Assembly: GCA_014871385.1 (NCBI GenBank)
Contig: CM026423.1
Location: 24,766,898-24,830,897 of the forward strand
Source of the DNA: Ceratodon purpureus
Lineage: Eukaryota > Streptophyta > Bryopsida > Pseudoditrichales > Ditrichaceae
Direction: 5' to 3'
DNA: 64,000 bases
Shown: one piece after another, positions 12,158 through 55,967 of the stretch
Layout: each line of letters opens with the position of its first letter
How positions within the stretch are numbered: the stretch's first letter is position 1
Program-made: the position numbers and the translations under genes
Notes under the pieces: model-generated
What the model was told of the DNA's origin: nothing
Seen by the model: the letters and a program-made list of their open reading frames with translations, nothing else
The model's database searches: none

Positions 12158-12430
12158 ATAGGGTTTAGGGTTTAGGGTTTAGGGTTTAGGTTTAGGGTTT
12201 AGGTTTAGGTTTTAGGGGTTAGGGGTTAGGGGTTGGGGGTTGGGGCTTAGGGGTTAGGGGTTAGGGCTTAGGGGTTGGGGCTTAGGGGTTAGGGGTTAGG
12301 GGTTGGGGCTTAGGGCTTAGGGGTTGGGGCTTAGGGGTTAGGGGTTGGGGCTTAGGGCTTAGGGGTTGGGGCTTAGGGCTTAGGGGTTGGGGCTTAGGGC
12401 TTAGGGGTTGGGGCTTAGGGGTTAGGGAAA
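12158..12430 (+). repeat. Interstitial telomeric repeat, TTTAGGG grading into TTAGGGG/CTTAGGGG variants
   Basis: Starts with four to five clean TTTAGGG units at 12158-12200 and grades into GGGGTTA, GGGGTTGGGGCTTA variants. The G-rich strand is the + strand, the orientation expected if a chromosome end lay to the right; the telomeric blocks after 53.5 kb point the other way. Confidence 0.95.
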
Positions 12431-13775
12431 TTAGGGGATATAGGGGAAATTAGGGAAAATTAGGGGATTTAGGGAAAATTAAGGGAAATAGGCGAAATAG
12501 GGGAAATCGGGGGAAATTAGGGGAAATTAGGGGATATGGGGGAAATAGGGGAAATTAGGGGGATATAGGGGAAATAGGGGAAATTAGGGGATTTGGGGAA
12601 AATTAGGGGAAATAGGGGAAATAGGGGAATTTGGGGGAAATTAGGGGAAATAGGGGAAATTGGGGGATATTAGGGGAAATAGGGGAAATTGGGGGAAATA
12701 GGGGAAATAGGGGAAATAGGGAAATAGGGGAAATTATGGAAAATTAGGGGAAATTAGGGAAATAGGGGAAATTAGGGAAATTGGGGGAAATTAGGGGAAA
12801 TTAGGGAAAATTAGGGAAATAGGGGAAATTAGGGAAAATTAGGGGAAATTAGGGAAAATTAGGGGAAATTAGGGAAAACTAGGGAGAGAGGGGAAATTAG
12901 GGGAAATTAGGGGAAATTAGGGGAATTTGGGGGAAATTAGGGGAAATAGGGGAAATTGGGGGATATTAGGGGAAATAGGGGAAATTGGGGGAAATAGGGG
13001 AAATAGGGGAAATAGGGAAATAGGGGAAATTATGGAAAATTAGGGGAAATTAGGGAAATAGGGGAAATTAGGGAAATTGGGGGGAAATTAGGGGAAATTA
13101 GGGAAAATTAGGGAAATAGGGGAAATTAGGGAAAATTAGGGGAAATTAGGGAAATTAGGGGAAATTAGGGAAAACTAGGGAGAGAGGGGAAATTAGGGGA
13201 AATTAGGGGAAATTAGGGGAAATTAGGGGATATAGGGGAAATCAGGGGAAATTAGGGGATATAGGGGAAATTAGGGGATATAGGGGAAATTAAGGGAAAT
13301 TAGGGGAAATTAGGGGATATAGGGGAAATCAGGGGATATAAGGGAATTAGGGGAAATTAGGGTTAATTAGGGGAAATTAGGGGAAATCAGGGGAAATTAG
13401 GAGATATAGGGGATATAGGGGAAATCAGGGGAAATTAGGGGAAATTAGGGGAAATTAGGGGATATAGGGGAAATTAAGGGAAATTAGGGGAAATTAGGGG
13501 ATATAGGGGAAATCAGGGGATATAAGGGAATTAGGGGAAATTAGGGTTAATTAGGGGAAATTAGGGGAAATCAGGGGAAATTAGGAGATATAGGGGATAT
13601 AGGGGAAATTAGGGTTAACTAGGGGAAATTAGGGTTAACTAGGGGAAATTAGAGAAATTAGGGGAAAGTAGAGAAATTAGGGGATATAGGGGAAATAGGG
13701 GAAATAGAGGAATTAGGGGAAATTAGGAGAAATTAGGGGAAATCAAGGGATACAGGGGAAATTAGGGGAAATTAA
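12425..13775 (+). repeat. G-rich minisatellite of GGGGAAATTA-type units
   Basis: About 1.35 kb of 8-10-bp units of the form AGGGGAAATT or AGGGGATAT, continuous with the telomeric block and plausibly derived from it. It contains two visible higher-order duplications: about 12620-12900 recurs at about 12920-13200, and about 13270-13395 recurs at about 13458-13585. Regular G runs of four make G-quadruplex formation on the + strand likely. No coding capacity. Confidence 0.93.
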
Positions 13776-17154: not shown

Positions 17155-17255
17155 GGGGGTTTGAGTCGAGCCGATCATCTACTGAAAGGCTTAGGAGCTT
17201 CAACGATCCAAAACATACGTCTGGTTTGCAAGGAGACAGCAAGGAGCTCCTTGTG
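17155..17255 (+). pseudogene. Host exon, left part, split by the giant MULE
   Basis: An acceptor-like TTTTTAG at about 17148-17154 opens a frame reading GFESSRSSTERLRSFNDPKH and then LQGDSKELLV up to the transposon border. The same ELLV codons recur as the target-site duplication on the far side (34081-34090), and the frame continues there. I do not recognise the protein. Confidence 0.55.
17246..17255. repeat. Target-site duplication, left copy
   Basis: GCTCCTTGTG, identical to 34081-34090 and directly abutting the terminal inverted repeat. MULEs typically make 9-11-bp duplications. Confidence 0.9.
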
Positions 17256-17308
17256 GAGGGAAGCTTGTACGTGAGCGGAGAGCGCAGAGCGGAGAGCGGT
17301 GAGCGCAG
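17256..17308 (+). repeat. Left terminal inverted repeat of the MULE
   Basis: Starts GAGGGAAGCTTGTAC, then GTGAGCGGAGAGCG with internal GAGCGGAGAGCG subrepeats. Pairs with 34028-34080 inverted. Weaker similarity continues to about 17470. Confidence 0.92.
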
Positions 17309-17344
17309 ATTTGGAGAGCGGAGAGCACAGAATGGGAGACAGAA

Positions 17345-18240
17345 CCTTAAAATAGCAATTTTTTTACTAAAAATAAATTATAAAATTAGAAGATCCGAAT
17401 ATTCTTAGTATATTTTTGGGGAGTTACTAATTTTAGTAATTTAATTGACCCTATAACCGTGGACTAATTACAGTATTTTCATTGAATTTGTAGTTCATAT
17501 TCTCTTTTCTTGGTGATTAATTTTTTAACGTGCACCAATTACTATGCTCCAGCTCCTTCTAACTAGTTCAGGCATACAGTAATTCCCCTTATCTCCTTAA
17601 ATTTATATGCAAATTACTACTTAAAATGTTTTGGTATTGAACCTGTGAACAGGGATCAAGTAACATTTAATTTCATAACATTTTCTTAACATTGCTAGAA
17701 TTCATCCACTATAATCTACATGCCTTTCTCCTTTTTTTTTTTATTTTTTTTAAATTTTTTTGAAATTTGTTTTGTATTTTTTATAAAATTTTCTTTATTC
17801 TATCTATCTTGTTAGAGGGGTCAAAAGCCTCCTTGCATTTGATTCTCTCCTTCATTTTATTTTCACAATCATTTTATTTTCACATTCAATTTGTTGATCT
17901 CCTTCATATTATTTTCAACCTTCATTTTAAATATTGCTATTCTTTTCTTTAATCTTTTTAATTTCAATTTATATAAATGTCTTTTTTTTTTAATTTTTTT
18001 TTTTTTTTTTTTCATTCTTTAATTTTTAAAGAAAAATTTAAATGCTAAATGACTTGTGCTAAACCTTCATCTTTTTCCATTCGGTTTAGGAGGATGACAA
18101 CTTTTAAATGAATGAATAGCCGATTTTCAAGGGCGCCAAGCATCTTCTTCAGGGATATTTAAGATAAGAGTAGGGAATGTCTCTGCCTCTTTTGTGTTGG
18201 TGTTATGTGAAGCTCTTTTCCGTAGTGCGGGACAGCAGCT
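17345..18240. other. Subterminal AT-rich region of the MULE
   Basis: Very AT-rich with long T runs (17730-17770 and 17985-18012). No gene. It presumably contains the promoter and leader of the small gene at 18241 and possibly transposase-binding sites. Confidence 0.5.
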
Positions 18241-18693
18241 ATGGAAGACGTCAGAGATATTGTTGTTTCACTTGCTGACGATGTTTGTCCATTTCAACCA
18301 TATGTTGAGGTCGATGACGAAGAAGAGGTGATGGCCAACAGCCAAGGGCGTCCTTCGACAACGGATGTTGACGTGCAACCGGATGTAAGATCTGACCCTC
18401 CACGTTCAGAAAATTCGGATGAAATCATAGTGCTAGAGAAGGACGCAGATGTGCCTTTGCAACCACATGCATACTCGAAGGTTGGAAAGATCCCAAGGGG
18501 AACCTATTCCAGGGAATCAGTTAATCGGAGGCGGGGAGGTGGGCCATTGCTGAAACGATCATACCAAGGACATTTGCCAAGTGTGGGAACGAAAGTGAAT
18601 GCGAATGTAGTTTCTCCTGTAGTACAGTCAGCGGCTGGCAGTCCTGCTGATAGTGTAGTGGGCAACCCTAAACGTGTTAGGTTCGAAGAATGA
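18241..18693 (+). CDS. Small acidic-to-basic transposon protein, unknown
   Basis: An intact 150-aa frame starting MEDVRDIVVSLADDV. The N-terminal 80 residues are acidic and contain DEIIVLEKD, which fits a SUMO-interacting motif (hydrophobic core followed by acidic residues). The C-terminal half is basic (RESVNRRRGGGPLLKRS; NPKRVRFEE at the end) and could bind DNA. No family is recognised. It is transcribed toward the transposase gene and ends 254 bp from the transposase stop. Position and composition resemble small accessory proteins of large DNA transposons, but that is inference; it could also be one exon of a longer gene. Confidence 0.6.
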   Translation: MEDVRDIVVSLADDVCPFQPYVEVDDEEEVMANSQGRPSTTDVDVQPDVRSDPPRSENSDEIIVLEKDADVPLQPHAYSKVGKIPRGTYSRESVNRRRGGGPLLKRSYQGHLPSVGTKVNANVVSPVVQSAAGSPADSVVGNPKRVRFEE

Positions 18694-18947
18694 GACATCT
18701 AATAACTAGTATATGTTTGCCTTAATAAAGGGTACATGTCAGAGGATACGAGGTATATAGTGCACTTCTTCAAGATACAATATATTGAAATAGAATGCAA
18801 TCAATGTGAACGCCAAAGCCTTTAATATAATGAAAAAGTCAATACAGCTTCTCAATAGCTGACTTAGTATATGGTATATTACTAAAATCATTCACTACGT
18901 GACAAATGGCCATTGTGGAAATGGAAGTTCTAAAGCAGGAGGGCTAC

Positions 18948-21900
18948 CTACTTCTTCGCCAAGGGGTGACGCAAGATTCCACTCTCTAAGAGTAGCTTGA
19001 CCTCGTTGAAGCTGAAGGTAGGCGCATGGATGAAAAGCTCCGCTTCGGGATCACGGTTGCAGACCTTCAAGAATATGTAGTATAGGTGCTTACAATACGT
19101 GAACTGAGTCTTCCCACGGAACGTAGTCATTGTCTTCTTGAATGCTGGGCAAGTGCAACCAGGGTAAGAACTGATGGTAATCTGGTACCGTGTGATGTGT
19201 GGAGCGACGCCCGAATCCAGCCCAATGATGCAACCGTGGCCCGGCTCAGGTATCATGGTGACGGAACGGAGGCGCGCTTTAAGAGACTCGGAGGAGCCCA
19301 TGGAGAGTCGCTGCGCTTGATTGGGACGGGTGGCAGTGCGCTTCACCATCTTGCCGTCTCTCTTGCCTGGGTAGCGGTCAGCGTCTTCAGGGACTGGCAC
19401 CGAGCTGAGATTTGCAGGGGGCGGGGCAGAGGAGAAGAGGCGTCTTGGGGAGACCGGCTTCTTCGGCGGAAGTTGAAAGCCCGCTGCTTCGAGGGCTAGA
19501 ATCTCAGTCAGTTTTAGGTTAGTACCTAGTTTCACTGGCCAGACCTCTGGAATGGAGGGGAATTCCTGGTCCTTTGAGTAGTGTGCTACCCACTTGCGCT
19601 TAGAGCCTTTCACGCAGCGCTCAATATCGTCGGAGCAGAAGAAGAACTCTGTCTTCTCGACTAGGTTCCTGCGATAATTAGTCCAGAGCCCAGTGTAGGT
19701 CGGTGCAGCTGTGGAATGGGGCCCTCTGACGATTCTCTCAGTGCACTTCTTCTTCGTTTCAGCCCTTTGGGCCCAGCAGCACTTCGCAGAAAGTTTGTGT
19801 AGTCTGGAAATGTGCCACTCCTTCACGTCCACCTTAGTTTCTTCAACCGCGTTGACATGGCGAATGCCGCCCTTGTTCACAGGTGAAGGTAAAGGGGAAT
19901 CAACTTCCTGGGCAGGAGGTTGCGTACATTGTACCTCGGTGTCTTGTTCGGAGTCGTCTTCCACAATGACGGGCATCTGCATAGGGCGAGCCCTGACGAC
20001 ACGTCTTGGGCCTCGTGGGCGTGAGAAGTTTGTCTTATCCGGGCGATGGGACTCCTCGTCAGCTCCGATAAGGACGTCGGCTTTTCGCTTCTGTGAACCG
20101 AAGACTTCCGCTCCAGGCATGATAGGCTGACGGGTGCAGAACTCATCCGCGCCTGGCATATCGAGCATGGGCTTGTCGAGCAGTGTAGGATTTCCCCATT
20201 TCTTTGCGTTGCGTTCAGCCATCCGGAGCCTGAGTTCCTTCTTGGATGGTCCGGTTCCGCCGACGTCACCTTTTAGGAACTGGTAGTAGTTGACAACCTG
20301 TAGAAAAGCCCGAACGAAATCGTCCACGGTAGCAACGTACAGGTCGTTCCCGTTGTTTCCTGAAGCTTGGAGCCACTTGTTGTGAACCGTTTCGGCGAGG
20401 TTACAGGTGGGCATCTCTGTGAGTTCTTCTTTCGTGAATTTCTGCAGATTTGACAGTAAATGCCGTTAGATTCACCGATTACAGGTTTCTAGGTTAGGGC
20501 TACGAAACCAGTATTAAAAACATCAAAACAGAGTGCAGAGAGATTACCTCGGTCATGAATCCCCCCCACTGGCGGAAGCGGTGGTGCCAGAATGACAGCC
20601 ACTGATCGAGTTTGATGAGCCCGCTCTCGCCAACGACCCCGGTGGATGCCCACCATGCTCGCAACGCGTGGTACAGAGTTTCCGCCTCTGCCATGCTGGT
20701 CGCATTCTTGTACTGAGTGCACATCTTTTTGTGCTGTACCCAGAGTTCTTCCGGGAAGTGCTTCTGCGTATACGCCACCATGTTCTGAGTCCAGTGGAAC
20801 AAGCACGACCTCTCCCGGTCCTCCATTGGGTCTTCCTTGTTGCCATTGCCGTAAAGGATTCGCACTGCATTCCAATTTGCCTGTGCGTTATCCGCCATGA
20901 ACCCCTTGAAGTTCGGCGCTGCAACGCCATTGATCTCCATGACCAGGTTCAGGTTTTTCCAGAAGACGAGCTGGGCGTCCGTGTCCTCGGACTGCATGTC
21001 GCAAGTGGCGATTGTCATCACGCGGCAGTAGGTGGCGTCGTACACATGGCACGCCATCGTCGACCAGTCTTTGACGCGTTTTACATGGTCGAACATGATC
21101 CATGCGTTCTCCAAGTCGCCACCAGCTTGCATACGGCTGACCAAGTCGACGCCACTTCCCGGCCCGACCTCCGACATTTTGAAGACGAAGACTTTGTCAC
21201 GCATAGATCCCTGACCAGGAAACCTATTCTCCTGGACATACGCCCAGAGACTGTTACCACGGAGCTTGGTGATACCGTCCATGATTCCGTACCTTACGAA
21301 TCTTTTGAAGGTGGCGACTTTGTTGCGGATGTTGGGCGACGCCATGTCTTTGCATCGATCCAGAACAGGAACCAGCTCCTCCATCGTCAGTTTCCTCGGT
21401 GGTGCATCCTCGGGCTGTAGAAGGTAGCTCCCGATGAGGAGTTTGCTCGCCTCCAGGACAACGGCGCTCTTTGTTGCTTTGTTGTTCATCTCTACCTGCT
21501 CTTCTATTAAGCTACTAATCTCTGCTTTAGAGTCTCTGTAGTCTCCTACTTTCACTGGATGATCATGTGTTCCTATGTGAATACAAGCTCTAGTCTGATT
21601 TGGTTTGCCCACAACGTAATAAATCTTAGCCTCGCATGTAGCTACACATGATGGAGGTTCTTTACATACCTTGCACACAAGCGTGGAGTCAGATGGAGGA
21701 GGCTGATCCATGAGAAAAGCTTGCAGGGTACAGCCTTCGAACTCAGTCTCGTTAACCTCGAAGATCTTGGGAACACGCTTCAGGAAGTCACACTCCTCGT
21801 TGGTGCAGCGCAGCCATCCGACGCAGGTGGAACTACGAAAAGACAGTCCGAAGTCGTTCTTGATGTTTGTTGTGATGGTCTTGGTCCACAAGTGTCCGTC

Positions 21901-22629
21901 GTATCGTTTGTCCATTCCCTGCATAGACTTGGCGGCGAGCTTAGAGGATCCTGCAGCAGCTGGGGGCAACTCAAATAGAACCGGACCATCAAACTTCGCA
22001 GGCAAGTACTCAACTCTCTCGTGTCTAATAGTGGAATAGTCTATCTTCTTCAATATGTTTTTTGACCCACGCGTCTTAGCAATCTCTTTAAGGAGCGGAA
22101 CAATGCTAACTGTGACTAAGGACAATGGAGGAGAGACATTGGAAGGAGGAGCATCTGCGTGGACCTTAGGCACCAACTTGACGGGACTGACTTCGTCATC
22201 AGAGGAGAGAGAAATGACTGTTGGAGGGGGAGGTTTCTCTACTTCTGAAGTTTCAGTACCAGGCTCGACTTTGACCTTGACATCACGAGGTAAGGGAGTC
22301 TGAATTGTGCAAGTAGAAGAGCGACGGGGGGTGAGGATCTCAGTGGATGCAGCCATAAGAGAATCAGTAAGACCATAGACTCTATAGGATCCAGGGAGGA
22401 GTCTCCACTGCAACATGTTGTTCTCATCTCTCAGTGAAGGTTGCCCGAGGGTGTGGGTAACCTCGGCAGTAACGTCATCAAAGATCTCCTCCTCTATACT
22501 GATAGAATCCTCACGAAAATGGAATCTGAGACTCAAGCGAAGAGAGGAGACTGTAGCAAGACCATCATCATCTACGCGAAACCTAAGAGGGATGCCCATG
22601 CCTTGGGCGTACAGGCACACCATTCCCAT
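18948..22629 (-). CDS. MULE transposase with N-terminal zinc finger and C-terminal SWIM finger
   Basis: Predicted 1,191 aa in two exons (22629-20548 and 20441-18948); the 106-nt intron has GTAATC...CTGCAG borders and joins in frame from GGFMTE to KFTKEELTE. The start is the ATG of MGMVCLYAQG, since the 14 residues upstream lack an ATG. Residues about 125-150 hold VISLSSDDE, a classic SUMO-interacting motif. A Cys/His cluster at about 269-357 (Cys269, Cys275, Cys280 and HIGTHDH) fits the WRKY-GCM1/FLYWCH-type DNA-binding finger found in MULEs. The catalytic triad is Asp531 (YDATYC), Asp580 (GFMADNAQANW) and Glu711 (TCNLAETVHNKW). The third acidic residue is reached only through the splice, which independently supports the intron. 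A SWIM finger (Cys1123, Cys1125, Cys1144, His1146; GCTCPAF...YCKHLYY) closes the protein. The region between is Lys/Arg-rich. Intact frame. Confidence 0.93.
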
Positions 22630-23219
22630 GTTTACAGACGCAGAGAGTAGAAGAGTGAGTGTATTAGCCAAGCGCTATCGCGAGAGCAAAGTGAGAGGAA
22701 TGATGCATCGTTGTTGATCATTTTATTCAAGTTGGAATGTCCCAGTGAATAGTTGAAGAATGATTCATTCTGTTAGGTAACGAATGTAAGATTTATTAGA
22801 GACGGCGCTAACTAATTATAATGCCACTTTTTGCAGGTCTAAGAATATCAGGTAAGATTTTTAGAACTCTACATTGATAATTTGAATCCAGGAGCACATT
22901 CTATTTGTTATTATTTATTATAGGATTAGAATGAGCCGTCATTAATATTCTACATTTAAAACAATGATTTTTAATAGCGGCAAGCATTGAAGTGCTCGGA
23001 TTTCTACCTTTTATTTCAGGGCTGAAATTTTAAACTATACTGTAATATAGAAATATCATTGGTACTCTTAATATAAAGTGGGTATATAATGTGTCAGTAG
23101 TTTAGAAAGTATTTGAGCTTAACGTTTAATTAAAATAGTGGTACGTCATAGGTATTTAAGCTGGGAAGAAACTCTCATGAGAGTCTTTTTGTGAGAGAGT
23201 CCTTTCTGTGGTTAGACAC
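22630..23219. promoter_or_regulatory. Probable bidirectional promoter of the MULE
   Basis: A 590-bp AT-rich spacer between the divergent transposase and methyltransferase genes. No frame of note. TATA-like stretches occur (GTATATAA at about 23082 toward the + gene; ATTTATTATAGG around 22915), but none can be assigned with confidence. Confidence 0.5.
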
Positions 23220-26200
23220 ATGAAGCAGAGTGGAGGGCCATCTCCCTCCACTTATGTCACTCCTAAACCTAGAAGAAAACCAGGTGGTACAGATTTCACG
23301 GATAGGAGAGCTAGAAAGAGGAGAGCATTACGTAAGAAGGTAGTTTTTAAAGATGACAATTTGAGTGCTCCTGTAAAAAGGAGAGGAGTCGGCCTGCCTG
23401 TAGCATTGAAGTTTTGTAGCATTCGCAAACTCATTCTCGAGTCTATAGTGGAGGAGAAGGAAGAGATATTAGAGAACACCGTTGTTGAGAGTCAAGAGCA
23501 GGAAGAGGAGGTACTCGGAAGTGGAGTTGCACGTGAGGCCATGACGGACGAATTAGTCTTTAATTGTAGTCAGAGAGTAGAATCACCAGAGCCTTCTATC
23601 AGATTCAATGACTCTTTGAGAAGAGGCCCTAATTCTCAATCCGAACATGACTTTAACTCCGTTGAAGTAAGTGTACTCAGACAAAGTCTAATATGAATCT
23701 CTAATGTACATGTGCAATTTGAATAAAAATATAGCAAATATTTATTGCAAAACTAGGGTATGATTTAATCAAGTTTATTACTTTTGACAGCTTCCAACTG
23801 ATAATCCTTTTTTTTTCACAATTTCCCAAAGAGTAACAACTGGATAAGGGAGGTGGGAGTTTCCACTCCATTGTCAGTAGTTGGAGTTGGTAGCGAAAGC
23901 GAGCGTTTGAGAGGGATTGCGAGGCGAGCCAGAGAGGAGATCCTCAGCAGTGGTGAAGGTGGGGTGGCGATGGCGGCGCGGATGGTAGGCGACGGAGGCC
24001 GAGGCGAGGAGGAGGCTGGGGGAGGCGCGGAGCCCGTGCTGGGAGAGGAGGAGCAGGGAGTGATCGAACCCGCGGCCCAGCCTGAGCTCGGCCTCGGAGC
24101 TGAAGGCGGGAGCGAGGACGAAGACGAAGACGAGGAGGAAGAGGAGGTAGCTGCCTCCACCTCCACATTGATACCGAGATGGCGACTGAATGTGTGACGT
24201 GTTTTTTGAATCTTGAATGTTTTAAATCTCGGGTATTTTGAATCTTGGGTCGTACGGAAATGAGAATAGTCAAGGTCGTACGGCAGCGACTGGAATTAAT
24301 GGTTGGTACAACGTACTGTGGCTTGCGGGTTGTGGGTACTTGGGATTCGGGATTTGGGTGCTTGGGTGCTGGGGTGCTTGGGTGCTTGGGTGCGGAATGT
24401 TTGGGTGCTTGGGTGCTAGGGTACAGAATGCTTGGGTGCTTGGGTGCTTGGGTGCTAGGGTACAGAATGCTTGGGTGCTTGGGTGCTTGGGTGCTGGGGT
24501 GCTTGAGTGGTTGGGTGCGGAAAGCTTTGGTGCTTGGGTGCTTTGGGTGCTTGGATGCTTGGGTGCTTGGGAACTCGGGTGTGGGATGTTTGGGTGCTTG
24601 GGCGCGGAATGGGATGCATATTGTGATTTTTTTAATTATTTTTTTTTTTCAAAAGTTTGGATCCGTCACCCTACTGTCGTCACAGACAGTAGGGGAGCGG
24701 GATTTGAACTCTTGTTCATGTTGGTGATATTTGCTCTCCTTGTGGTGCTTGGGCTGCTCGGCTTGGAGCCATTTCATTTTTAATTTGTTTTTTGTTTTCA
24801 AATTTTTGATTTCCTTAAGGTACCTTATGATTATTAATTAATTTTTTTTTTCAAAAATTTGGATCCGTCACCCTACTGTCGTCACAGACAGTAGGGGAGC
24901 GGGATTTGAACTCTTGTTCATGTTGGTGATATTTGCTCTCCTTGTGGTGCTTGGGCTGCTCGGCTTGGAGCCATTTCATTTGTAATTTGTTTTTTGTTTT
25001 CAAATTTTTGATTTCCTTAAGGTACCTTATGATTATTAATTATTTTTTTTTTTCAAAAGTTTGGATCCGTCACCCTACTGTCGTCACAGACAGTAGGGGA
25101 GCGGGATTTGAACTCTTGTTCATGTTGGTGATATTTGCTCTCCTTGTGGTGCTTGGGCTGCTCGGCTTGGAGCCATTTCATTTTTAATTTGTTTTTTGTT
25201 TTCAAATTTTTGATTTCCTTAAGGTACCTTATGATTATTAATTATTTTTTTTTTTCAAAAATTTGGATCCGTCACCCTACTGTCGTCACAGACAGTAGGG
25301 GAGCGGGATTTGAACTCTTGTTCATGTTGGTGATATTTGCTCTCCTTGTGGTGCTTGGGCTGCTCGGCTTGGAGCCATTTCATTTGTAATTTGTTTTTTG
25401 TTTTCAAATTTTTGATTTCCTTAAGGTACCTTATGATTATTAATTAATTTTTTTTTTCAAAAATTTGGATCCGTCACCCTACTGTCGTCACAGACAGTAG
25501 GGGAGCGGGATTTGAACTCTTGTTCATGTTGGTGATATTTGCTCTCCTTGTGGTGCTTGGGCTGCTCGGCTTGGAGCCATTTCATTTGTAATTTGTTTTT
25601 TGTTTTCAAATTTTTGATTTCCTTAAGGTACCTTATGATTATTAATTAATTTTTTTTTTCAAAAATTTGGATCCGTCACCCTACTGTCGTCACAGACAGT
25701 AGGGGAGCGGGATTTGAACTCTTGTTCATGTTGGTGATATTTGCTCTCCTTGTGGTGCTTGGGCTGCTCGGCTTGGAGCCATTTCATTTTTAATTTGTTT
25801 TTTGTTTTCAAAGTTTTGATTTCCTTAAGGTACCTTATGATTATTAATTAAATTTTTTTTTTCAAAAATTTGGATCCGTCACCCTACTGTCGTCACAGAC
25901 AGTAGGGGAGCGGGATTTGAACTCTTGTTCATGTTGGTGATATTTGCTCTCCTTGTGGTGCTTGGGCTGCTCGGCTTGGAGCCATTTCATTTTTAATTTG
26001 TTTTTTGTTTTCAAATTTTTGATTTCCTTAAGGTACCTTATGATTATTAATTAATTTTTTTTTTCAAAAATTTGGATCCGTCACCCTACTGTCGTCACAG
26101 ACAGTAGGGGAGCGGGATTTGAACTCTTGTTCATGTTGGTGATATTTGCTCTCCTTGTGGTGCTTGGGCTGCTCGGCTTGGAGCCATTTCATTTGTAATT

Positions 26201-29200
26201 TGTTTTTTGTTTTCAAATTTTTGATTTCCTTAAGGTACCTTATGATTATTAATTATTTTTTTTTTTCAAAAGTTTGGATCCGTCACCCTACTGTCGTCAC
26301 AGACAGTAGGGGAGCGGGATTTGAACTCTTGTTCATGTTGGTGATATTTGCTCTCCTTGTGGTGCTTGGGCTGCTCGGCTTGGAGCCATTTCATTTTTAA
26401 TTTGTTTTTTGTTTTCAAATTTTTGATTTCCTTAAGGTACCTTATGATTATTAATTAATTTTTTTTTTCAAAAATTTGGATCCGTCACCCTACTGTCGTC
26501 ACAGACAGTAGGGGAGCGGGATTTGAACTCTTGTTCATGTTGGTGATATTTGCTCTCCTTGTGGTGCTTGGGCTGCTCGGCTTGGAGCCATTTCATTTTA
26601 ATTTTGTTTTTTCTTTTCAAAGTTTTGATTTCCTTAAGGTACCTTATGTTTATTAATTAATTTTTTTTTTCAAAAATTTGGATCCGTCACCCTACTGTCG
26701 TCACAGACAGTAGGGGAGCGGGATTTGAACTCTTGTTCATGTTGGTGATATTTGCTCTCCTTGTGGTGCTTGGGCTGCTCGGCTTGGAGCCATTTCATTT
26801 TTAATTTGTTTTTTGTTTTCAAAGTTTTGATTTCCTTAAGGTACCTTATGATTATTAATTAAATTTTTTTTTTCAAAAATTTGGATCCGTCACCCTACTG
26901 TCGTCACAGACAGTAGGGGAGCGGGATTTGAACTCTTGTTCATGTTGGTGATATTTGCTCTCCTTGTGGTGCTTGGGCTGCTCGGCTTGGAGCCATTTCA
27001 TTTTAATTTTGTTTTTTCTTTTCAAAGTTTTGATTTCCTTAAGGTACCTTATGTTTATTAATTAATTTTTTTTTTCAAAAATTTGGATCCGTCACCCTAC
27101 TGTCGTCACAGACAGTAGGGGAGCGGGATTTGAACTCTTGTTCATGTTGGTGATATTTGCTCTCCTTGTGGTGCTTGGGCTGCTCGGCTTGGAGCCATTT
27201 CATTTTAATTTTGTTTTTTCTTTTCAAAGTTTTGATTTCCTTAAGGTAACTTATGTTTATTGTTTTAAATTTTTACTCTATAAAAGTATCCTTCACCCTA
27301 CTGTCTGTGACGACAGTAGGGGAGCGGGATTTGAACTCTTGTTCATGTTGGTGATATTTGCTCTCCTTGTGGTGCTTGGGCTGCTCGGCTTGGAGCCACT
27401 TCATTTCAGCTTGTAGAGAGTATTCGGTTCGATTCCCCCCGGCTGGAGGTCCTGCTAGAAAGCTGTACCAATGATGGCCCCAATTTTTTAGACGTCTTGC
27501 TTAGTATGCGTTAAATTTTTGAAGTGTCCTTGTTATTAGACTGAGTTTGAGATATTCTTTCTTCAACATTAGTGGTGTTCGTTTGTTCTCAACATTAGTG
27601 GTGTTCGTTTGTTTTGAACAGAGGTTTGATGGCTGCTTTGTCACATTTATTTGTCTTTGTGTATGAATTAGGAGTCTTCTGAGGATAATATGGAAAGCCA
27701 ACGTGAAGTCCCAACTCCAGCTGAGACCGAGGTACATAACTATTTCTTCTCACTTGTCTTTTTTTTTTTATTTATTGCTTACAACTCTTTTGAAATGTGG
27801 AAAATAACCCTCACTTCATTTCTTTTACTCTAGGTATATTCAGATGCTCCTGAGATGTCCGCGACCTCCCCCATTTCAGTTATCAATGTTTCCGACCTCT
27901 CGGATTCATTTGATCAGCCTTATTGTACCTGTGATGTAGCCAACCCTGTAGTTGGAGATAGTGGACCTCTCGAGGTCCACTCTCCACAGTACATGCCTAC
28001 TTCTCCCGTGTACATGCCTTCTTCTCCCGTGTACATGCCTACCTCCCCAGTGTATGAGCCTACGTCACCGGCCTACATGCCCACTTCCCCTCTAGAGGGC
28101 TCACCGCCGATGTCTCCACCCTCTCCTTCCTCGCCTATCAGAGTGAGAAGGCCTGCCCATGTGGTGTTTGCTCTACCGGCAATTCTGCCGTGCCCGGTTC
28201 AGCAAACCAGGCGGTTTTGGAGGAGGCGCCGTCACTGGAACTGTAGACAGTCTAAGGAGTACTATAGTCGAGCATCACGTAGATAGTTCCCCCAAGCGCA
28301 GATGAATTCTGACTTGTTACAAAAGAGATGACAGTATGAAGATATATTGTTACTTTCTTTTACATACTTGTCTTCTTTGCATGACTTCCTTTGATTGTGA
28401 TTCCTCTCTGAATTCCCACACCTCTTGGCAGGTTACTCAAACACAGGATGTGGTGGCAAAACCATCTTGCCCGATTGACTTGAAGACTGCTATGGAAGGG
28501 GAGTTGCAGCATCGAATTCAATACAAGTTGGACTCCAACGCCGTCATCAACAACCTTAGGATCAAACCGCCGGAGAAGTCTCGAATGCTGGTTCCCTTAT
28601 GCAGGATGATTCCAATGGCCAAGGTAAGACCAGTGGGTGAAATGGGGGTACAACACTTGGAGCGGGAGTTTGTTAAGGGATATAGAGATGGGGACCGCGT
28701 CATGTACATCTCCATGTACAACACTGAAGAGGAAACGAAGAATGTGACGGCGGAGATTATGGCCACTTGGAGCCCTTTATGGAGGGCAGCGAGTGATCGT
28801 TTTGATGATGAGATCTCTGGGGACGAGGAGTTGCTGCAGTTCTCTCACAAGATGTTTTTTGTCTGGGAGGGTAATCATCGCCTCTCCGCTTGGCTCCGGC
28901 ATATCAACAAGCATCATGCGGACGACCCATCCTGGCACATCTCTGTGCATTGCATTGTACTTGACCCCCGCGGCCAGGTGGGCAATCTCCTGCACGCCAT
29001 GCACGACATCAACTGGTACGTTCAAAAGTTTTGACTATTTGTTATCCATACTCAAGTCTATTTCGATTATATTTTATTCGACTTACGTACTAATTTCATA
29101 TTCAGGTCGACTGAGAATGACCACGTGAAGAGTAATCTTCCAGCAAAATTGTTTCGAATCCGCTCATTCGGAATGATGAAGCTGGAGGAGTTTAAAGACC

Positions 29201-32200
29201 TCCTGCGCCCTGACGAATATGAGGCTTGTTTGAAGAACAGGCCACCGAACCCGTCATGGTTCCCCTTGACAACTCGTGTGTTTATCGCATTTCTCTACCG
29301 AGTAAGTTGTACCTCCTCTTTGTCTTTCCTCGTTTTGTCTCCCTTCATTCTTTGCAAGTTCTATTTTATTCATTTATGAATTCTCTAAGAACTGGTTATC
29401 CTTCTACAGCGGGAAATTGCTGTGGCCTCGGATGAAGCAGCTAAAGCCTACATGGAGAAGACACCGGCGGATGAACAGACTGCATCTGCGATTTGGGATG
29501 TCATGAATGACGCGACTGAGAAAATGGTGGACCTCATTAAGAGGAAGGACTTCACTAAGTACTTGGCAATAGCAAATCCCAGAAACGGAGACGACTTCCT
29601 GAATGAGGTAACACCTTCATCTAATTTCAATTAGTATTTTGAATTGTTACAACATTATGCAATTATATTTTCTAATACTTCTCTACTCCTGGCAGATCAA
29701 TCGGCATTACAGTCTAAACTCTAAACCTGAGATGTCCCTCGATAAGCTCCAGAAGATCTGTCCAGCTGCCGTTGAGCCCAAATACAAGGCTCGGTGGCTG
29801 AGGTGGTGGAACTCATCTCCGAGTTCTCGACTATCTTACAGATTTCCACCACTTGAATTCAAGGATACTGCATTCGACCCTTGGTTGAACAGGGCTTCAT
29901 TCTGGGCTGGGGTATGGTTTCTCAATATCCCTTACCAATTACAACATGCTTTCTGATTTCTTTTCTCATTGGTACTAATTCTCATTGGTACTACAGTTGG
30001 AGGAAGCCGTCATCAACGAGGTTGATGACATATTCAAGTCAGAGAACCTCGATATCGACTGGACGGCATTTCCTGATGTCCAACAGCCGGGCGATTATGT
30101 CGAGAGTTCACGTATTATGTTGTGGGACAAGGCCTTCCCTACGTTCATTGGAAAAAACGCTAAGAAGCCCTTCGAGAAGAAGTCCGACTTCGCTAAATTC
30201 CCTGGAACTGCTGATGTTGTCAAGCGGGTTATTTACCGGTATATTGCCTAACTTTTTTGCATTTGCATATTCTAATTCGCTAGAGCTTTCTATGCTACTA
30301 ACCTTCTAAATTTCTTCTCTTAGGTACTTCAAGCGAGAGCTTGTTTTGAAGGGGGCCATCACGGTCCAACAGCTCCCCAACTACTTCCGTGCTTGGACGG
30401 AGACAACCTCGGACCAGTGTATCTATTCTCCCCAGCAGCTGCAAAGGTACAAAGCTCCTCACTTGCTTGAGGGATGCTGGTACCTTGATTGCTCTCGTGG
30501 TTTCACGATTGACTCAGAGGTCGACGTCAAGACTCTACACGATGGGGGTGCGGTGGTGGTCGAAGACACAGAGGATGGTGCAGAGGATTTTGAAGGACAG
30601 CAAGACCAATCCTCTGCTCCTCCACCGAAGAAAGGGAGAGGAAGGCGACTGAAATCTCTCCGTTCTCAGTCAGAGGCATCACAGCAAACCGGTGCGGCGT
30701 CTTCTCAGCCAAAACAGAAGGAACCGGAGCCCTCTCCAGGTATTGTCGTTACGAAGCCTTCTCCAGCTTCTTCGCCGGCTCCTTCCTCAATCAGTGCTTC
30801 CGAGGTCACCAGAGGTCTCCTCGAGCAGCGGAAAACCAAGAAATTTCCACAGACTACCTCTTCCGCTGGAACTATCAATTCCTCTCAGGTTTATGTCATC
30901 AACTCCTCTGTTGGCTCGGTTCTATCCCGACACAAGGAACTTGAAGACGTTGGTGGCGATCCCGAATGGAACAAGGCTCTAGACATCATTCGAATGGTAT
31001 GATTCGTTGTTTCATTCTTTCCCTTGAATTCTTATATTCTGTTAACCTTATATTTTCTAACTCTGATTTCTTGTTTATTCAAGTTTGGGGCAGGCCGCGA
31101 GAACCGAGTTCCTGATAGATGCAATGAGGACAATCACTTGGGATTCGACTTGATCATTGTCGACGTTCCTGAGAATCTTCCGGTCCCCACTATATCCAAT
31201 CCCACCTACGTCCCTCCGTCTTGGAACAAACGCGGCAAGGATTATTTGGAGGACCTCTTCGAGTTCGCAAGACATTACTTGCAGTTTGATGGTGCTCTCT
31301 GCATCATCCACAACAACGACCAACGTCTGGCTACGAAGATTTCCGAAGTGGCTGCTGCTGATGGCTTCGTGCAGCACCGAGACTGGTGGGGCTTCAATGC
31401 ACTAGGCTTGGCTCACCCAACGATGCCCGGCTCCTTGGTATGTACATCATAATCTTCGCTTGTCTTTGCATTTTACTAAGTTTTCTTTTTAATAACACTC
31501 ACATATTTCTGTTTTTCGCAGTCTCTTCGATTCTGGGTGCGCGTCTTCATTCGTGGTGGTTCTCCCCCATCCAAGTTTTCTTTTCAAACGAAGAAATCCG
31601 ATGTCGTTTACAACGACCTCCACATTACCGAGAGTGATGCCATTCTCAACTTCACCGATGCAGACTCGCAGCTCATGAATGGGGAGGTGCCCTGGAGAGG
31701 CCCGAGGGAGAAAGCCCCTGAGATGATGCAGGGCATCATTGAGGAGATGACCAAGCCCGGTGACATAGTCTTCGAATGGTCGGCAGGAACAGGTAATCCT
31801 CCATTAACAGTTTCTGTATTTCCAATCCTCTGATTTTCTCCACAGGGACTCACTACTTTTCTGTGCTACGTGTTTTCAGGTGCCTCCCTTAAGGCTTGCC
31901 AGAGTATTGGTCGTCATATTATAGCTTGTGAGGAGGACGAAGCCATCTTCAACGCCCTTCTCAAACCGTATATGGCTACGTCATCTGCCATGGGCCCTCC
32001 TAAACATCCTAGGCCGGCAGCAGCAGACGAAGCGCCTCCAAAGAGAGCTAGAAGACCTGATAAGTGGTGTAAGTCTTCTATTTTTTGTTCAAATTCTCCA
32101 AGCATTTCTTCTCTTTGCACCTCTACGTATTTAATCTAACCACAATCGGTTTTCTATTGCAGAGTAGTTTCGGCAACACCGCCACGTGGGCCAACACCAG

Positions 32201-32430
32201 TGTCCACTCCATCGTGGCGTCTTCATTCCAGCCCGATTCAGCCTTTTATACTTCCGGACTACGCAGAGGACTTAGCACAGGCGTTTCAATCTGGAGCCCT
32301 CACATATGTTCCTAGTCGGCCAACTACTTTTGATCCCAGGGCCCTTTTATTCGTCGATGACGAGGCGGTAGAAGAAGATTCGGAGTCCTCTAGTTCTGAG
32401 AGTGAAAGTAGCGACTGTAGCATGTTGTGA
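23220..32430 (+). CDS. CTD-heptad / ParB-like / N6-N4 DNA methyltransferase-like protein carried by the MULE
   Basis: Thirteen predicted exons: 23220-23666, 27672-27731, 27834-28142, 28432-29015, 29106-29301, 29410-29607, 29696-29911, 29997-30238, 30324-30996, 31084-31437, 31522-31792, 31880-32068, 32165-32430. All borders are GT-AG, all phases agree, giving 4,005 nt and 1,334 aa without a stop. Residues 1-150 are basic ([12 protein letters not shown]). Residues 222-256 are five heptads of the form YMPTSPV, like the RNA polymerase II CTD. Around 335-450 lies a ParB/Srx-like fold signature with [12 protein letters not shown] (GNHR 419-422). Residues about 980-1220 form a beta-class N6-A/N4-C methyltransferase-like domain: [10 protein letters not shown] (1002-1005 replacing DPPY), [14 protein letters not shown], then [14 protein letters not shown] (FEWSAGTG 1177-1184) and [11 protein letters not shown]. 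The C-terminal tail is Ser/Glu-rich. Exon 1 to exon 2 spans a 4-kb intron and is the least certain join; exon 3 could also read on to a stop at 28286. Methyltransferase activity is doubtful because the DPPY motif is altered. Confidence 0.83.
23850..24197 (+). other. GC-rich coding-like island in the 4-kb intron, possible captured exon
   Basis: Markedly more GC-rich than the surrounding transposon DNA. A + frame reads [18 protein letters not shown] and ends in an acidic run of Asp/Glu. It looks like the first exon of a host gene (ATG-proximal GCG codons, acidic tail). MULEs are known to pick up host exons (Pack-MULEs). Source gene not recognised. Confidence 0.35.
24330..24612 (+). repeat. Minisatellite of CTTGGGTG units
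   Basis: About 280 bp built from 8-bp CTTGGGTG units interspersed with short variants (GGTACAGAATG, TGCGGAATG). Lies at the left edge of the 202-bp array. Any open frame here is a by-product of the 8-bp period. Confidence 0.85.
24622..27416 (+). repeat. Tandem array, 14 copies of a 202-bp unit
   Basis: Thirteen near-identical units carry GGATCC at 24659, 24861, 25063, 25265, 25467, 25669, 25872, 26074, 26276, 26478, 26680, 26883 and 27085; a fourteenth, divergent copy starts near 27285. Each unit has a T tract, a 26-bp palindrome (CCCTACTGTC, loop, GACAGTAGGG), then sequence whose reverse strand contains GAGTTCAAATCCC (similar to a Pol III B box) and AAGCCGAGCAGC (10 of 12 match to an A box). 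The T tract would be an A-rich tail on that strand. A tRNA-derived SINE that became tandemly amplified is one reading. Low divergence points to recent amplification. It lies inside the first intron of the methyltransferase gene. Confidence 0.93.
27562..27614 (+). repeat. 27-bp tandem duplication
   Basis: The string CAACATTAGTGGTGTTCGTT occurs twice in a row just upstream of exon 2 of the methyltransferase gene. It is probably replication slippage within the intron. Confidence 0.85.
27990..28094 (+). repeat. Five 21-bp repeats encoding Pol II CTD-like heptads
   Basis: Encodes [35 protein letters not shown]. The Thr, Ser and Pro codons differ between repeats mostly at third positions (for example ACT/ACC/ACG, TCT/TCC/TCA, CCC/CCA/CCG/CCT), so the protein repeat is older than the DNA looks and has been kept by selection rather than being a fresh slippage product. 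Confidence 0.93.
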
Positions 32431-32938
32431 GGTTGAAGGAGGCTTCGGTCTATTGTTGTTTTCATTTGATTTGATTTTATTTAATTGGAGTTCATTGGGT
32501 AATCCTTCGTCTACTCTACTTCCCTGAACCTAAACTTGTTATAATTCTCATGTCCAATTTGTCTCCGTGTTTGTAAAGGATGAAATGTCACAACTGTAAT
32601 GCTCAAAATATAATATGAAGAATGAAATGTTACAAAAGAAAGGCACAAATATAATATTGTGCTGTTATTTATATTTTACTCATTCAAAATCCCACATTTG
32701 CATAGCCATGTTACCTATTCTTGACTTGGTGTACATCTTGGTTTCTGCCACTCCATTATTGAACAGGAACTCTGAAATATTCCACGAACTTCTAAGACCA
32801 TTTCGGTTATTTGTTTCGAGTTGTCTTATTCCTAGAATCGTCTATATTATCTAAAGCCATTATGCTGGAATACTCGTATCTAGATCCAATGAATGACCAA
32901 ATCTTAAGGATTCGAACACCCCACTAGACTTCACAGTA
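32431..32938. other. Spacer between convergent genes of the MULE
   Basis: AT-rich 3' flank shared by the methyltransferase gene and the small minus-strand gene. Contains AT-rich candidate polyadenylation sequence around 32609-32625; no gene. Confidence 0.5.
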
Positions 32939-33310
32939 CTAATCCTTCGAAGGATATACAGTCCAACTCTTGTCCATATCAAACCAGCAAGTTTCGCCAT
33001 CCGATATGATCACTTCGGGCAGCTGAACAACTGGATTGTCATCGACGTTCGATAGCAAGGGATACGGGATTAGGGACAACTCCATAATACGGAGAAGCTC
33101 ATTGGTACAAAGCACTGTCCAACGCCATTCACCTTCACCAACATGGAGGCTTCCGATGTGCCTAAACGGTGGCAGGTCCATGCCTCGTTCCCTGGCGCGC
33201 TCCACCTCCAGCAGCCACGGCCGCAGCTCCTCATAACTCGCCGGTGCCTTTGGGGGCAAACCTACAGCCGCTCTCGTCCTCCTGGATCTCGCATTACACA
33301 CCTTCGGCAT
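32939..33310 (-). CDS. Small transposon protein, unknown
   Basis: An intact 123-aa frame starting MPKVCNARSRRTRAAVGLPP; an upstream extension in the same frame lacks convincing protein character and is left out. The N-terminus is basic, followed by a helical Glu/Arg-rich stretch (YEELRPWLLEVERARERGMD) and a more hydrophobic C-terminal half with Trp residues (EWRWTVLCTNELLRIMEL; SDGETCWFDMDKSWTV). No family recognised. It lies between the methyltransferase gene and the right inverted repeat and is transcribed toward the centre of the element, mirroring the small gene near the left end. It could be the last exon of a longer gene. Confidence 0.55.
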   Translation of the reverse strand: MPKVCNARSRRTRAAVGLPPKAPASYEELRPWLLEVERARERGMDLPPFRHIGSLHVGEGEWRWTVLCTNELLRIMELSLIPYPLLSNVDDNPVVQLPEVIISDGETCWFDMDKSWTVYPSKD

Positions 33311-34027
33311 CGCGCAACACACTAAATTGTTGTACTCTAAAAACGTTACAGGCAAGCTTGCAGATTGACATCCCCGAACTCCTACGCTACCTTCGCATAC
33401 AGCACAGCATGCCAAGGACTGTGTCACTATCCAAATACGCCATCTAGAGATAAGCTCAAGAAACCAAGAGTGACCTCCTTCTCTGGAACCCAGCTTACCA
33501 AGTGTTGTTTGATGATGAAAATCTCCTACTTGTATCACTCAAATGAAGATGCTTTGCTGCCTAGGAAGAGAGAGTAATCTTCGATGAAGACAAGGACTCT
33601 AACAAGGTATATCTTGGTTTCAGCAGTTAAGATATTATACACGAATTTTGAAATATTCCAGGAAGTTTTCAAACCTTGCCTCCTTTATGTTCTGTGAAAG
33701 TTGTTTCTTTCCTTGTGCATTTACATAAACCTATGAAAGAATTAATTGTTTGATCTAGAACTTAACGCCTGATCATTATATCTTGCCTAAATCCATGAGA
33801 AATATAACAAAATATATGCATGACGTCATCATGACATCAGCCCTAATTTGTATCTTAGAGAACAAACGTAATAAATTCTTACCAGAGATAATCCTAATTT
33901 CCACGGTAATGCACTATTTTTCTAAAAAAAGTGTCAAAATCAAGCCTTAATTTAGTAATTTTCCACGGTTATAGGGTCTACTTTGCTTTTGAAAATTTTC
34001 CTAATTCTCAATTCTGTGCTCTCCATT
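33311..34027. other. Right subterminal region of the MULE
   Basis: AT-rich, no supported gene. Near the end it repeats, inverted, the CCCTATAACCGTGG motif found inside the left end. Confidence 0.5.
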
Positions 34028-34080
34028 CTGCGCTCACCGCTCTCCGCTCTACGCTCTCCGCTCACATACGAACTTTCCCC
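34028..34080 (-). repeat. Right terminal inverted repeat of the MULE
   Basis: Read on the minus strand from 34080 it starts GGGGAAAGTTCGTAT and then GTGAGCGGAGAGCG, matching the left end at 47 of 53 positions; the six mismatches are transitions. Confidence 0.92.
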
Positions 34081-34090
34081 GCTCCTTGTG
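34081..34090. repeat. Target-site duplication, right copy
   Basis: GCTCCTTGTG, identical to 17246-17255. Confidence 0.9.
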
Positions 34091-52996: not shown

Positions 52997-53494
52997 GTTT
53001 TTTCACTTTCATGTTCTGTGTTTAATATTATAATGAGGATGCGGACAGCGACGAGGATAGCCACGAGGAGCTGTAGGCAGTTGCGGATGAGTGTAGGCTG
53101 TGGAGCTCAGGTCGTTGGGAAGGGGACCTGGCGGTGGAAGGCTGCGGGGATTGAAGTGGCTTGTGTGCTTAGTTTTGAGATAGCTGCTGGAGGAATTCAG
53201 TTGCCCTGGGACTGCAGAATTGGAAAGACGGAGAGGGGGTGATTGACGCAGTACTACGGGGCACTACTAGGGGGAAGTAGGGGAACGTTGGGAACTTGGG
53301 GTGAACTTAGGGGGAACGTAGGGGAAATTGGGGGGAACTTAGGGGAAATAGTTTCCCCTACTTTCTTAGGATTCATAATTTCGCAAAATGCTTTAGGTTT
53401 TTAGACTCCTTATCGTTTCCTGATTCTAACGATGTAAAATCCCCAACAAAAAACCTTAGCATCAGATTAACCCCAAAGCTATGGAACGCTCCTG
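52997..53494. other. Transition to the subtelomeric array
   Basis: No gene. Includes a short GGGGAACTTAGGGGAAAT-like run (53265-53350) resembling the minisatellite of 12.4-13.8 kb. Confidence 0.5.
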
Positions 53495-53745
53495 TAACCC
53501 TAAACCCTAAACCCTAAACCCTAAACCCAAAACCCTAAACCCTAAACACCTAAACCCTAAACCTAAACCCTAAACCTAAACCTAAACCTAAACCCTAAAC
53601 CTAAACCTAAACCTAAACCCTAAACCCTAAACCTAAACCCTAAACCTAAACCCTAAACCCTAAACCCTAAACCCTAAACCCTAAACCCTAAACCCTAAAC
53701 CCTAAACCCTAAAACCCTAAACCCTAAACCCTAAACCCTAAACCC
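53495..53745 (+). repeat. Telomeric block (CCCTAAA)n
   Basis: About 250 bp of CCCTAAA with CCTAAA and CCCTAAAA variants. The C-rich strand is +, so a chromosome end would lie toward lower coordinates; the genes on that side show this block is interstitial. Confidence 0.96.
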
Positions 53746-55967
53746 TCCGTTTAGAATCGCCCTTCACCGAGGCAAGGGATCATAATTGCCACCCCCAGAA
53801 AAGGGACCTTGCATTTACTATTATTATCCGTATAGGTGTGGCCCACCTATAGATAATTGTGAGGGAATTCCGGTCATATGTAGGGCTTTGTGATCGGAGT
53901 TTGCAGGCATGAGATATAGATGGATGAAGTTTCAAGAATCTAAAGTTCATCCATCTATATCTCCTAAATGAAGATAGTCTATGGAAATGTTTTTACATAT
54001 TCCAATTCCTTGAGCTTAAAATAGAGTGTAGGTGTCCTTAAAACTTTGATTGCTTTGGCCAATTGACAATGATTCCTATTTTAAGACTTTACCTTTGATT
54101 GCCTATAACTCCTAACCAACACTATTTATGGAAAAAAATTTAAAAGCATCGTCCAAAAATAACTAACAACTATCACATAAGCCTTTGAAAATTTAAAAAT
54201 TGCTTTAAATAGACCAAAGTCAACTACCCTAGCTCAAGATCAACGAGGCTATATCTCCAAAACTACAATAGTCTATAGAAATGTTTTTACATATTTGGAT
54301 TCCCTATACCTTAAAATGGGGGGGTAGGTCACCTCAAAATGCCAAAAAAAGCATGCCAAAAATACGGGAACACCCTTGTAACCCTAAACCCTAAACCCTA
54401 AACCCAAAACCCACAAGCATTTGGAAACCCTAAAGACCACTATCAACCCCACTATATTTTCTTAACCCTAACCCTAATGAGTATTTTGACTACACCATTG
54501 GATTCACAATGCCCTAATATGGGGGGGTAGGTATGTTCAAAATTCCAAAATACTTCACCAATCAAGAAGTCAACTCAAATTTTGCAAAGTCCAAGATGTT
54601 ATATCTCCCAAATGGTGATAGTGTTAAGCGAAATTATTGGACCATTGGATTCACAACCCTTATAAATGGGGGGGTAGGTCCCCTCAAAACCTCATTCTAA
54701 GTATGCTATATAATCGGGGACACACATGTAACCCTAAAACCCTAAACCCTAAATCCTAAACCGCTTACATATATGATTTATTTTTAAACTTCTTTACATT
54801 TCTAAAGTCACGTTATAAAATCCTCCAAAACATGTGTATATTAAAAACAAATACACATTTCATTGAAATGTCATGACTTAAAGTTGTTCATGAGCTTTTG
54901 GCACGTTGGAAAAGTTCAATTCCATGACTTTAATGAATAGAGTACCATTAAGTTAGACATATGTAACATATACACATATAACAAATTAAAGTCAATCACG
55001 CCCTAGAGCCAATTAAAGGGATTTCAAATTGATATCAAAATCCATCTTTGGACTTTGTATGCCTAAGATATTAATGGATGAAGTTTGCAAATTCAGAACT
55101 TCATCCATCTATATCTCATGCATACAAAGTCCAAACATGAAGTGTCATACCATTTTGGAATGCTCGAGATAGGCCCTAGGATGTGGCAAAAGTTTAAAGT
55201 CAAACCCTAAACCTCATCAAAAAGTCATAATCCTAAGACCACCCCTGTACATCTCTTAAACAAAGCACATCTAGACAAATCCAACATCACCATTGGATTC
55301 CCCATGCCCAAATTAGTGGGGGTAGGTATCTTCAAACTTCCAAAATAATGAATATTCAAGTGAAAGTCAACAACATTTACCGAAGTCAAACGTTTAATAT
55401 CTCCCAAATGGTGATAGTGTTAAGCGAAATTATTTCACCATTGGATTCACAACCTTTGAAAATGGGGGGGTACATGTCCTTGAAATTTCGAAATTCCAAA
55501 CCCACAAGCATTTGGAAACCCTAAAGACCACTATCAACCCCACTATATTTTCTTAACCCTAACCCTAATGAGTATTTTGACTACACCATTGGATTCACAA
55601 TGCCCTAATATAGGGGGGTAGGTATGTTCAAAATTCCAAAATACTTCACCAATCAAGAAGTCAACTCAAATTTTGCAAAGTCCAAGATGCTATATCTCCC
55701 AAATGGTGATAGTGTTAAGCGAAATTATTGGACCACTGGATTCACAACCCTTGTAAATTGGGGGGTAGGTCCTCTCAAAACCTCATTCTAACTATGCCAT
55801 ATAATCGGGGACACACATGTAACCCTAAACCCTAAACCCTAAACCCTAAACCCTAAACCCTAACCCTAAACCCTAAACCCTAAAACCCTAAACCCTAAAA
55901 CCCTAAACCCTAAACCCTAAACCCTAAACCCTAAAACCCTAAACCCTTAACCCTAAACCCTAAACCC
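53746..55967 (+). repeat. Subtelomeric satellite unit 1 (2,222 bp)
   Basis: Begins TCCGTTTAGAATCGCCC directly after telomeric repeat. Built of modules that each end in TGTAACCCTAAA: module a (to about 54400), b (about 54407-54735), c (54740-55497), b again (55498-55822), then a telomeric block. Contains foldbacks, e.g. AGATATAGATGGATGAA paired with TTCATCCATCTATATCT at 53911-53963. No coding role; a 60-codon frame recurring on the minus strand is part of the satellite. Confidence 0.96.

Follow-up and report, generated by a model that had tools for sequence, protein, structure and literature searches.

A high-copy MULE-type transposon of the moss Ceratodon purpureus pairs its transposase with a ParB-like, methyltransferase-like protein and a palindrome array

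A 64,000-nucleotide stretch of the genome of the moss Ceratodon purpureus (contig C3, positions 24766898-24830897; hereafter the window) contains at 17256-34080 a real element, an autonomous, high-copy transposon of the Mutator-like element (MULE) type, in which the transposase gene travels together with a second gene, the cargo, itself a core gene under purifying selection. The cargo protein combines heptads resembling the C-terminal domain (CTD) of RNA polymerase II with a ParB-like domain and an N6/N4 methyltransferase-like domain, and an array of palindromic tandem repeats lies near the start of its gene. The element, the linkage of its genes, selection, the domains and the arrays are well supported; the explanation tentatively offered for cargo and array, with a probability of about 0.45, is that the protein would recognise its own element and act against silencing.

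The genome searched totals 362.5 Mb and is divided among 151 contigs, including one of 110.5 Mb, and copies were read in the 20 kb around the first ten of 39 other left-end matches, making eleven copies with the window; the genomic DNA read besides the window comes to about 260 kb. A first-pass annotation of the window had proposed a 10-bp target duplication, matched inverted ends and an intact two-exon transposase, all of which hold: the duplication is exact, the inverted ends (17258-17309 against 34027-34078) are 90% complementary over 52 nt, and the two transposase exons join into 1191 amino acids without an internal stop. The intact 13-exon cargo gene that it had also described is sustained in that exons 5-14 join stop-free, but the present model has 14 exons, exons 1 and 2 being less certain than the others. 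The features, with ratios of nonsynonymous to synonymous substitution rates (dN/dS), are as follows.

17246-17255: left target-site duplication GCTCCTTGTG, exact 10 bp
17256-17309, plus strand: left terminal inverted repeat, near-identical matches in the genome
18241-18693, plus strand: small acidic open reading frame, 150 amino acids, found in 9 of 10 copies and open in 9 of 9, dN/dS about 0.42
18948-20441, minus strand: transposase exon 2, catalytic E in NLAE and SWIM-like CxC...CxH, dN/dS about 0.14
20548-22629, minus strand: transposase exon 1, with the two catalytic D residues and CxxH, dN/dS about 0.10
23220-23666, plus strand: cargo exon 1, a basic region with the probable start; 9 of 10 copies have a match, stop-free in 8 of the 9; median dN/dS 0.34
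23832-24146, plus strand: tentative cargo exon 2, acidic and weakly conserved; 6 of 10 copies have a match, one of them broken by a stop
24632-27406: tandem array, 202-bp unit repeated 13.7 times, 14 palindromes, 13 of them CCCTACTGTC-gtcaca-GACAGTAGGG
27672-27731, plus strand: cargo exon 3
27834-28142, plus strand: cargo exon 4, RNA polymerase II CTD-like heptads of YMPTSPV type, five in the window
28432-29015, plus strand: cargo exon 5, ParB-like domain by predicted fold
29106-29301, plus strand: cargo exon 6
29410-29607, plus strand: cargo exon 7
29696-29911, plus strand: cargo exon 8
29997-30238, plus strand: cargo exon 9
30324-30996, plus strand: cargo exon 10, partly low-complexity linker
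31084-31437, plus strand: cargo exon 11, methyltransferase-like domain, DVPE at the motif IV position
31522-31792, plus strand: cargo exon 12, methyltransferase-like domain, beginning of S-adenosylmethionine (SAM) motif I
31880-32068, plus strand: cargo exon 13, end of the methyltransferase-like domain
32165-32430, plus strand: cargo exon 14, conserved C-terminal tail
32939-33310, minus strand: small open reading frame, 123 amino acids, found in 5 of 10 copies and open in 5 of 5, dN/dS about 0.30
34027-34080, minus strand: right terminal inverted repeat
34081-34090: right target-site duplication GCTCCTTGTG, exact 10 bp

MULEs generate target duplications of 8-11 bp and encode a D-D-E transposase with a CxxH motif and a SWIM-type CxC...CxH zinc ligand, and both the 10-bp duplication and these motifs are found here. 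Residues D531, D580, C609 and H612 are invariant across 18 aligned proteins, the catalytic E in NLAE is present in the window's exon 2 and in the three of the 18 aligned rows that reach that far, and the SWIM-like motif of exon 2, read by eye, is accompanied by a Pfam SWIM match (6.8e-5) in one of the 18 relatives. The window protein itself falls into no Pfam family, one of the 18 relatives gives a weak Transposase_mut match (E 0.18), a PDB profile search with the transposase returned nothing, and a viral-contig scan with its exon 1 found no relative. The two small reading frames near the element ends are possibly a third and a fourth gene.

Copies of the element are numerous. The left end has at least 40 matches at 98-100% identity, window included (40 scored of 1253 first-look candidates), and the right end has at least 40 matches (40 scored of 1385 candidates). 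Exact 10-bp duplications flank seven of the eleven copies, at seven different sites (the window and the copies C3, C12_7, C12_4, C2, C8 and C5), and the other four have no matching pair within the DNA stretch examined. Each of the seven duplications admits a reading that ends in G, and two also one of 11 bp; a 9-bp duplication next to an invariant terminal base would possibly account for this, as would a preference for certain targets.

According to the first-pass annotation, a single element would be supported if more than one copy had the two genes together, enclosed by matching ends, and this is what the genome holds: cargo exons are present in all ten extra copies and a transposase match in nine. 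The cargo is open over exons 5-14 in the seven copies with 10-bp duplications, and both genes appear open in five of the eleven. Transposase exon 1 is full-length and in one piece in six of the ten extra copies, stop-free in four (C12_4, C5, C12_7, C2) and with one stop in two (C9, C3), while the best match in C8, C1_28.26 and C6 extends over no more than about 400-435 of the 694 residues. Four copies are without a full cargo gene or have it interrupted: another family copy apparently sits within cargo exon 6 of C9_12.8, the cargo of C1_28.44 is broken in exon 6 beside retrotransposon-like frames (with no transposase match inside the element), C1_28.26 is rearranged, and C6_51.2 has several stops. 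Genome-wide, cargo exon 5 has at least 150 essentially full-length matches at 81-100% identity (150 scored of 1897 candidates), 130 of the 150 being stop-free by manual count of the table, and transposase exon 1 is stop-free in 61 of 64 scored matches (manual count; 2770 candidates). When only these scored matches are paired, with contigs of unavailable size set to 17 Mb, 22 of the 64 transposase matches have a cargo exon 5 within 20 kb in the expected divergent geometry, against a random expectation of 0.27, and no pair within that distance has the wrong geometry.

A long multi-exon gene within a DNA transposon could instead be a host gene captured once, a passenger in the manner of Pack-MULEs, which carry captured host genes and no transposase of their own. 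Such an origin is most improbable here, given the high-copy exon 5, the stop-free transposase, the divergent pairing of the two genes and the purifying selection on the cargo across copies. Relatives are also found elsewhere, as 59 transposase proteins and 63 cargo-exon proteins, and one diverged transposase and cargo exon come from another source in which both records give the longest contig as 674632; this pair suggests linkage in another organism and likewise speaks against capture.

Divergence is uneven along the element. Set against the window, most copies are about 93-95% identical in the transposase half, whereas the cargo half is mostly 68-84% identical, and since the transposase half is far more alike between copies than the cargo half, the copies are mosaics. 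In most of them, the tail exon hardly varies. Frequent recombination or conversion between copies would explain both the uneven divergence and the uniform tail exon. Contig C6, the 110.5-Mb one, holds nine of the 64 scored transposase matches but 59 of the 150 for cargo exon 5, a hint, from lists limited to scored matches, of a possible sex chromosome on which copies degenerate.

The cargo protein is constrained. Median dN/dS is 0.20 over the 21 pairs formed by seven cargo genes, with 0.11 for the ParB part, 0.15 for the middle, 0.32 for the methyltransferase part and 0.37 for the tail. All 11 copies have the CTD-like heptad run, which has partly degenerated in two of them, and the methyltransferase domain of exon 11 is open in all 27 matches. 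That the protein unites ParB-like and N6/N4 methyltransferase-like domains, as first annotated, is upheld by predicted fold and domain homology respectively. A Pfam scan of the 1062-residue cargo core and the exon 1 frame gave N6_N4_Mtase, a weak DUF6568 and otherwise chance-level matches; DUF1985 and DUF287, the domains of VANC proteins, were absent from that scan, exons 2-4 lying outside it. Searched with phmmer, the whole core yields no relative and exon 5 alone 63, a difference probably due to gene callers splitting relatives at introns. Exon 5 found no relative in a viral-contig scan, and a PDB profile search with this ParB exon returned nothing. A tblastn search of phages with one methyltransferase part gave 141 records at E <=0.1, with no close donor among the 15 rows listed, whose identities are 21-41%. 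Short hydrophobic stretches with acidic neighbours occur in three proteins of the element, near PTVISLSSDDE in the transposase, at DEIIVLEKD in a small reading frame and in cargo exon 4; read by eye, they presumably resemble SUMO-interacting motifs.

Whether the methyltransferase-like domain methylates DNA bears on what the protein does. In active beta-class amino-methyltransferases, the catalytic motif IV is (D/N/S)PP(Y/F/W). Among the 27 of 29 copies that have an exon 11 match, the cargo reads DIPE in 19, DVPE in seven and DILE in one, so that D[I/V]PE replaces DPPY in 26 of 27; in a weak alignment, the motif lies opposite the DPPYNL of CcrM, and D[I/V]PE is not known as a variant of DPPY. 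Because motif IV is altered, the first-pass suggestion of a working modification enzyme is not supported, and to judge from the motif the domain is probably non-catalytic and active methylation by the cargo unlikely. An N4-cytosine or N6-adenine DNA methyltransferase guided by its ParB part, marking element DNA to protect or activate it, is accordingly an improbable account, further weakened by a domain dN/dS higher than in the ParB part and the middle. In its favour, the beta class does match in the order of its domains and in the SAM motif, the domain is open in every exon 11 match and constrained, and the same idea has been put forward for algal transposons (PMC12477816).

The palindrome arrays may be sites of DNA recognition. 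The window array lies between cargo exons 2 and 3 of the gene model, and an array stands upstream of exon 3 or 5 in eight of the ten fetched copies (all except C1_28.44 and C6_51.2, which have none) and in six of six further loci chosen from the cargo exon 5 match list, hence in 15 of 17 with the window. Units range from 117 to 441 bp, and the 12 unit sequences form six families by BLAST, the other three arrays fitting families already represented. The window palindrome is CCCTACTGTC-n6-GACAGTAGGG, and other arrays carry CCTACTGTCGT-ca-ACGACAGTAGG, GGCATTCTGTACAGAATGCC or CGTGTCTGCT-n5-AGCAGACACG. In 12 of 12 units, the palindrome is stronger than in shuffles (p 0.0025-0.032, 400 shuffles each; Fisher's combination of 1.7e-14 is overstated because units within a family are related), and when 420 windows, each 202 bp long, are taken from the transposase half, at most 0.5% of them reach the strength of 11 of the 12 palindromes, with 8.6% reaching that of C8. 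The two best BLAST matches between the window unit and the 210-bp unit of C2 are both the palindrome, so the palindrome outlives its surroundings; from copy to copy, whole units are replaced, yet the palindrome can survive. Within arrays, it is less variable than the remainder in 12 of 13 tested (C12_7.17 and C1_28.26 being outside the test), clearly in C2, C8, L029 and L034 and hardly in L031, and exact palindromes range from 5 of 13 (L031) to 18 of 18 (C5). One palindrome class has 2742 genome matches, its reversed control none. Counted by hand, the 100 matches listed group into nine clusters on C1; of these 100 matches, 68 lie beside a scored cargo exon 5, 13 between the mapped ends of one element and 19 in three further clusters. 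Two other ideas about the repeats were set aside: long open frames through some arrays had suggested a coding repeat, which units of 202 and 128 bp, not multiples of three, do not generally allow, and a tRNA-like reading of the 202-bp unit was given up, ARAGORN and Rfam having found nothing in the window.

Under the preferred explanation, the cargo protein would bind the palindromes that its own element carries, probably in dimeric form and with several molecules per array. From the array, the bound protein would relieve silencing or drive transcription of the element, its CTD-like heptads recruiting transcription factors and its methyltransferase fold binding DNA or SAM instead of methylating, and rapid array turnover would provide every subfamily with an address of its own, an idea already put forward for VANC and VANDAL elements. 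Judged from sequence, the chances that the array is the protein's target are about even, and an anti-silencing role is plausible by analogy.

Two observations weigh against this explanation. The array of copy C3 is an exception in which the named palindrome is poorly conserved, and the association between array and protein has another account. When arrays are sorted by eye and post hoc into three palindrome classes, class tracks protein distance in exon 4 (0 of 5000 permutations), exon 5 (p 0.002) and exon 2 (p 0.019); in exons 1, 3, 6 and 7 the relation is weak or lacking (p 0.09-0.13), and it is absent from exon 8 onward and from the transposase. Linkage to the adjoining array accounts for this equally well as co-evolution does, and since the correlation fades as the array becomes more distant, its presence at the ParB exon was not taken to prove co-evolution. 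The arrays might be fast satellite expansions, their palindromes arising from replication slippage or hairpins or serving the transposase or a host factor, with the cargo doing something else such as regulating transposition. Wholesale change of array sequence, the proximity effect and the C3 array all fit such an origin, which is nonetheless rather unlikely, for above-shuffle palindromes occur in every unit tested and slippage alone leaves unexplained why the same palindrome recurs in otherwise unrelated units.

Around the element, the window shows at 12159-13774 a G-rich minisatellite with 7- and 10-bp units and extreme GC skew, and at 53280-64000 several blocks of the plant telomere-type repeat AACCCTA near the end of contig C3, which look subtelomeric.

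Several known systems share parts with this element. The CTP-dependent clamps ParB, Noc and KorB of bacteria resemble the cargo in the predicted fold of exon 5 and in palindromic candidate sites, parS being palindromic, but sequence identity is only 5-14%. A full ParB-parS-like system, in which the protein would load at its own palindrome array and spread as a nucleotide-switched clamp while a CTD-like tail keeps the element open and subfamily-specific palindromes provide self-recognition, is quite improbable. The beta-class amino-methyltransferases CcrM, DpnA, RsrI and MboIIA share motif order and sequence profile with the cargo, which differs in having D[I/V]PE for DPPY and a ParB-like domain fused via a long linker.

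Among transposons, viral Mariner elements with methyltransferases are on record (PMC3627910), and algal transposons such as Sola1-1_Ec32 of Ectocarpus encode ParB-plus-methyltransferase accessory proteins (PMC12477816) that are likewise about 1100 amino acids long, combine ParB-like and N4/N6 methyltransferase domains and lie on the strand opposite the transposase. The cargo matches this type by predicted fold for the ParB-like domain and by homology, not activity, for the methyltransferase domain, whereas transposon superfamily and host lineage differ, and palindrome arrays, CTD-like heptads and a lost DPPY go unmentioned in the available text of that source. The protein architecture is therefore not new as a transposon accessory, which weakens the novelty first claimed for it. 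The open-licence literature, as far as its texts were available, yielded no MULE or land-plant transposon with a ParB-methyltransferase protein, the primary references on algae, where a moss may be mentioned, lying outside that search. Nor did it yield palindrome arrays with such a protein or loss of its catalytic motif, CTD-like heptads not being searched for. Copy-specific palindrome arrays and CTD-like heptads go beyond the first-pass annotation. If the array is the protein's target, the moss element also suggests for the algal proteins a function in addressed binding rather than, or besides, methylation.

The closest functional parallel is found in the VANDAL MULEs of Arabidopsis, where binding and demethylation by VANC are established (PMC5735166; PMC10398659); VANC has DUF1985/DUF287, and its target tandem repeats vary between related copies (PMC5735166). 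A conserved transposase, a more variable second protein and tandem repeats differing between related copies are common to both, while the moss element has inverted ends, palindromic repeats and a ParB-like, methyltransferase-like protein with CTD-like heptads; VANC action is shown by experiment, that of the moss cargo being predicted from sequence. If the array is the protein's target, sequence-specific self-recognition would have evolved at least twice in plant MULEs from unrelated proteins, VANC and a ParB/methyltransferase fusion, transposon escape from silencing without harm to the host would become directly testable in moss, and one genome would supply natural pairs of protein and address. 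By this analogy, the best reading is that the cargo would work like VANC and yet be no VANC, reaching a similar end with other domains and other parts.
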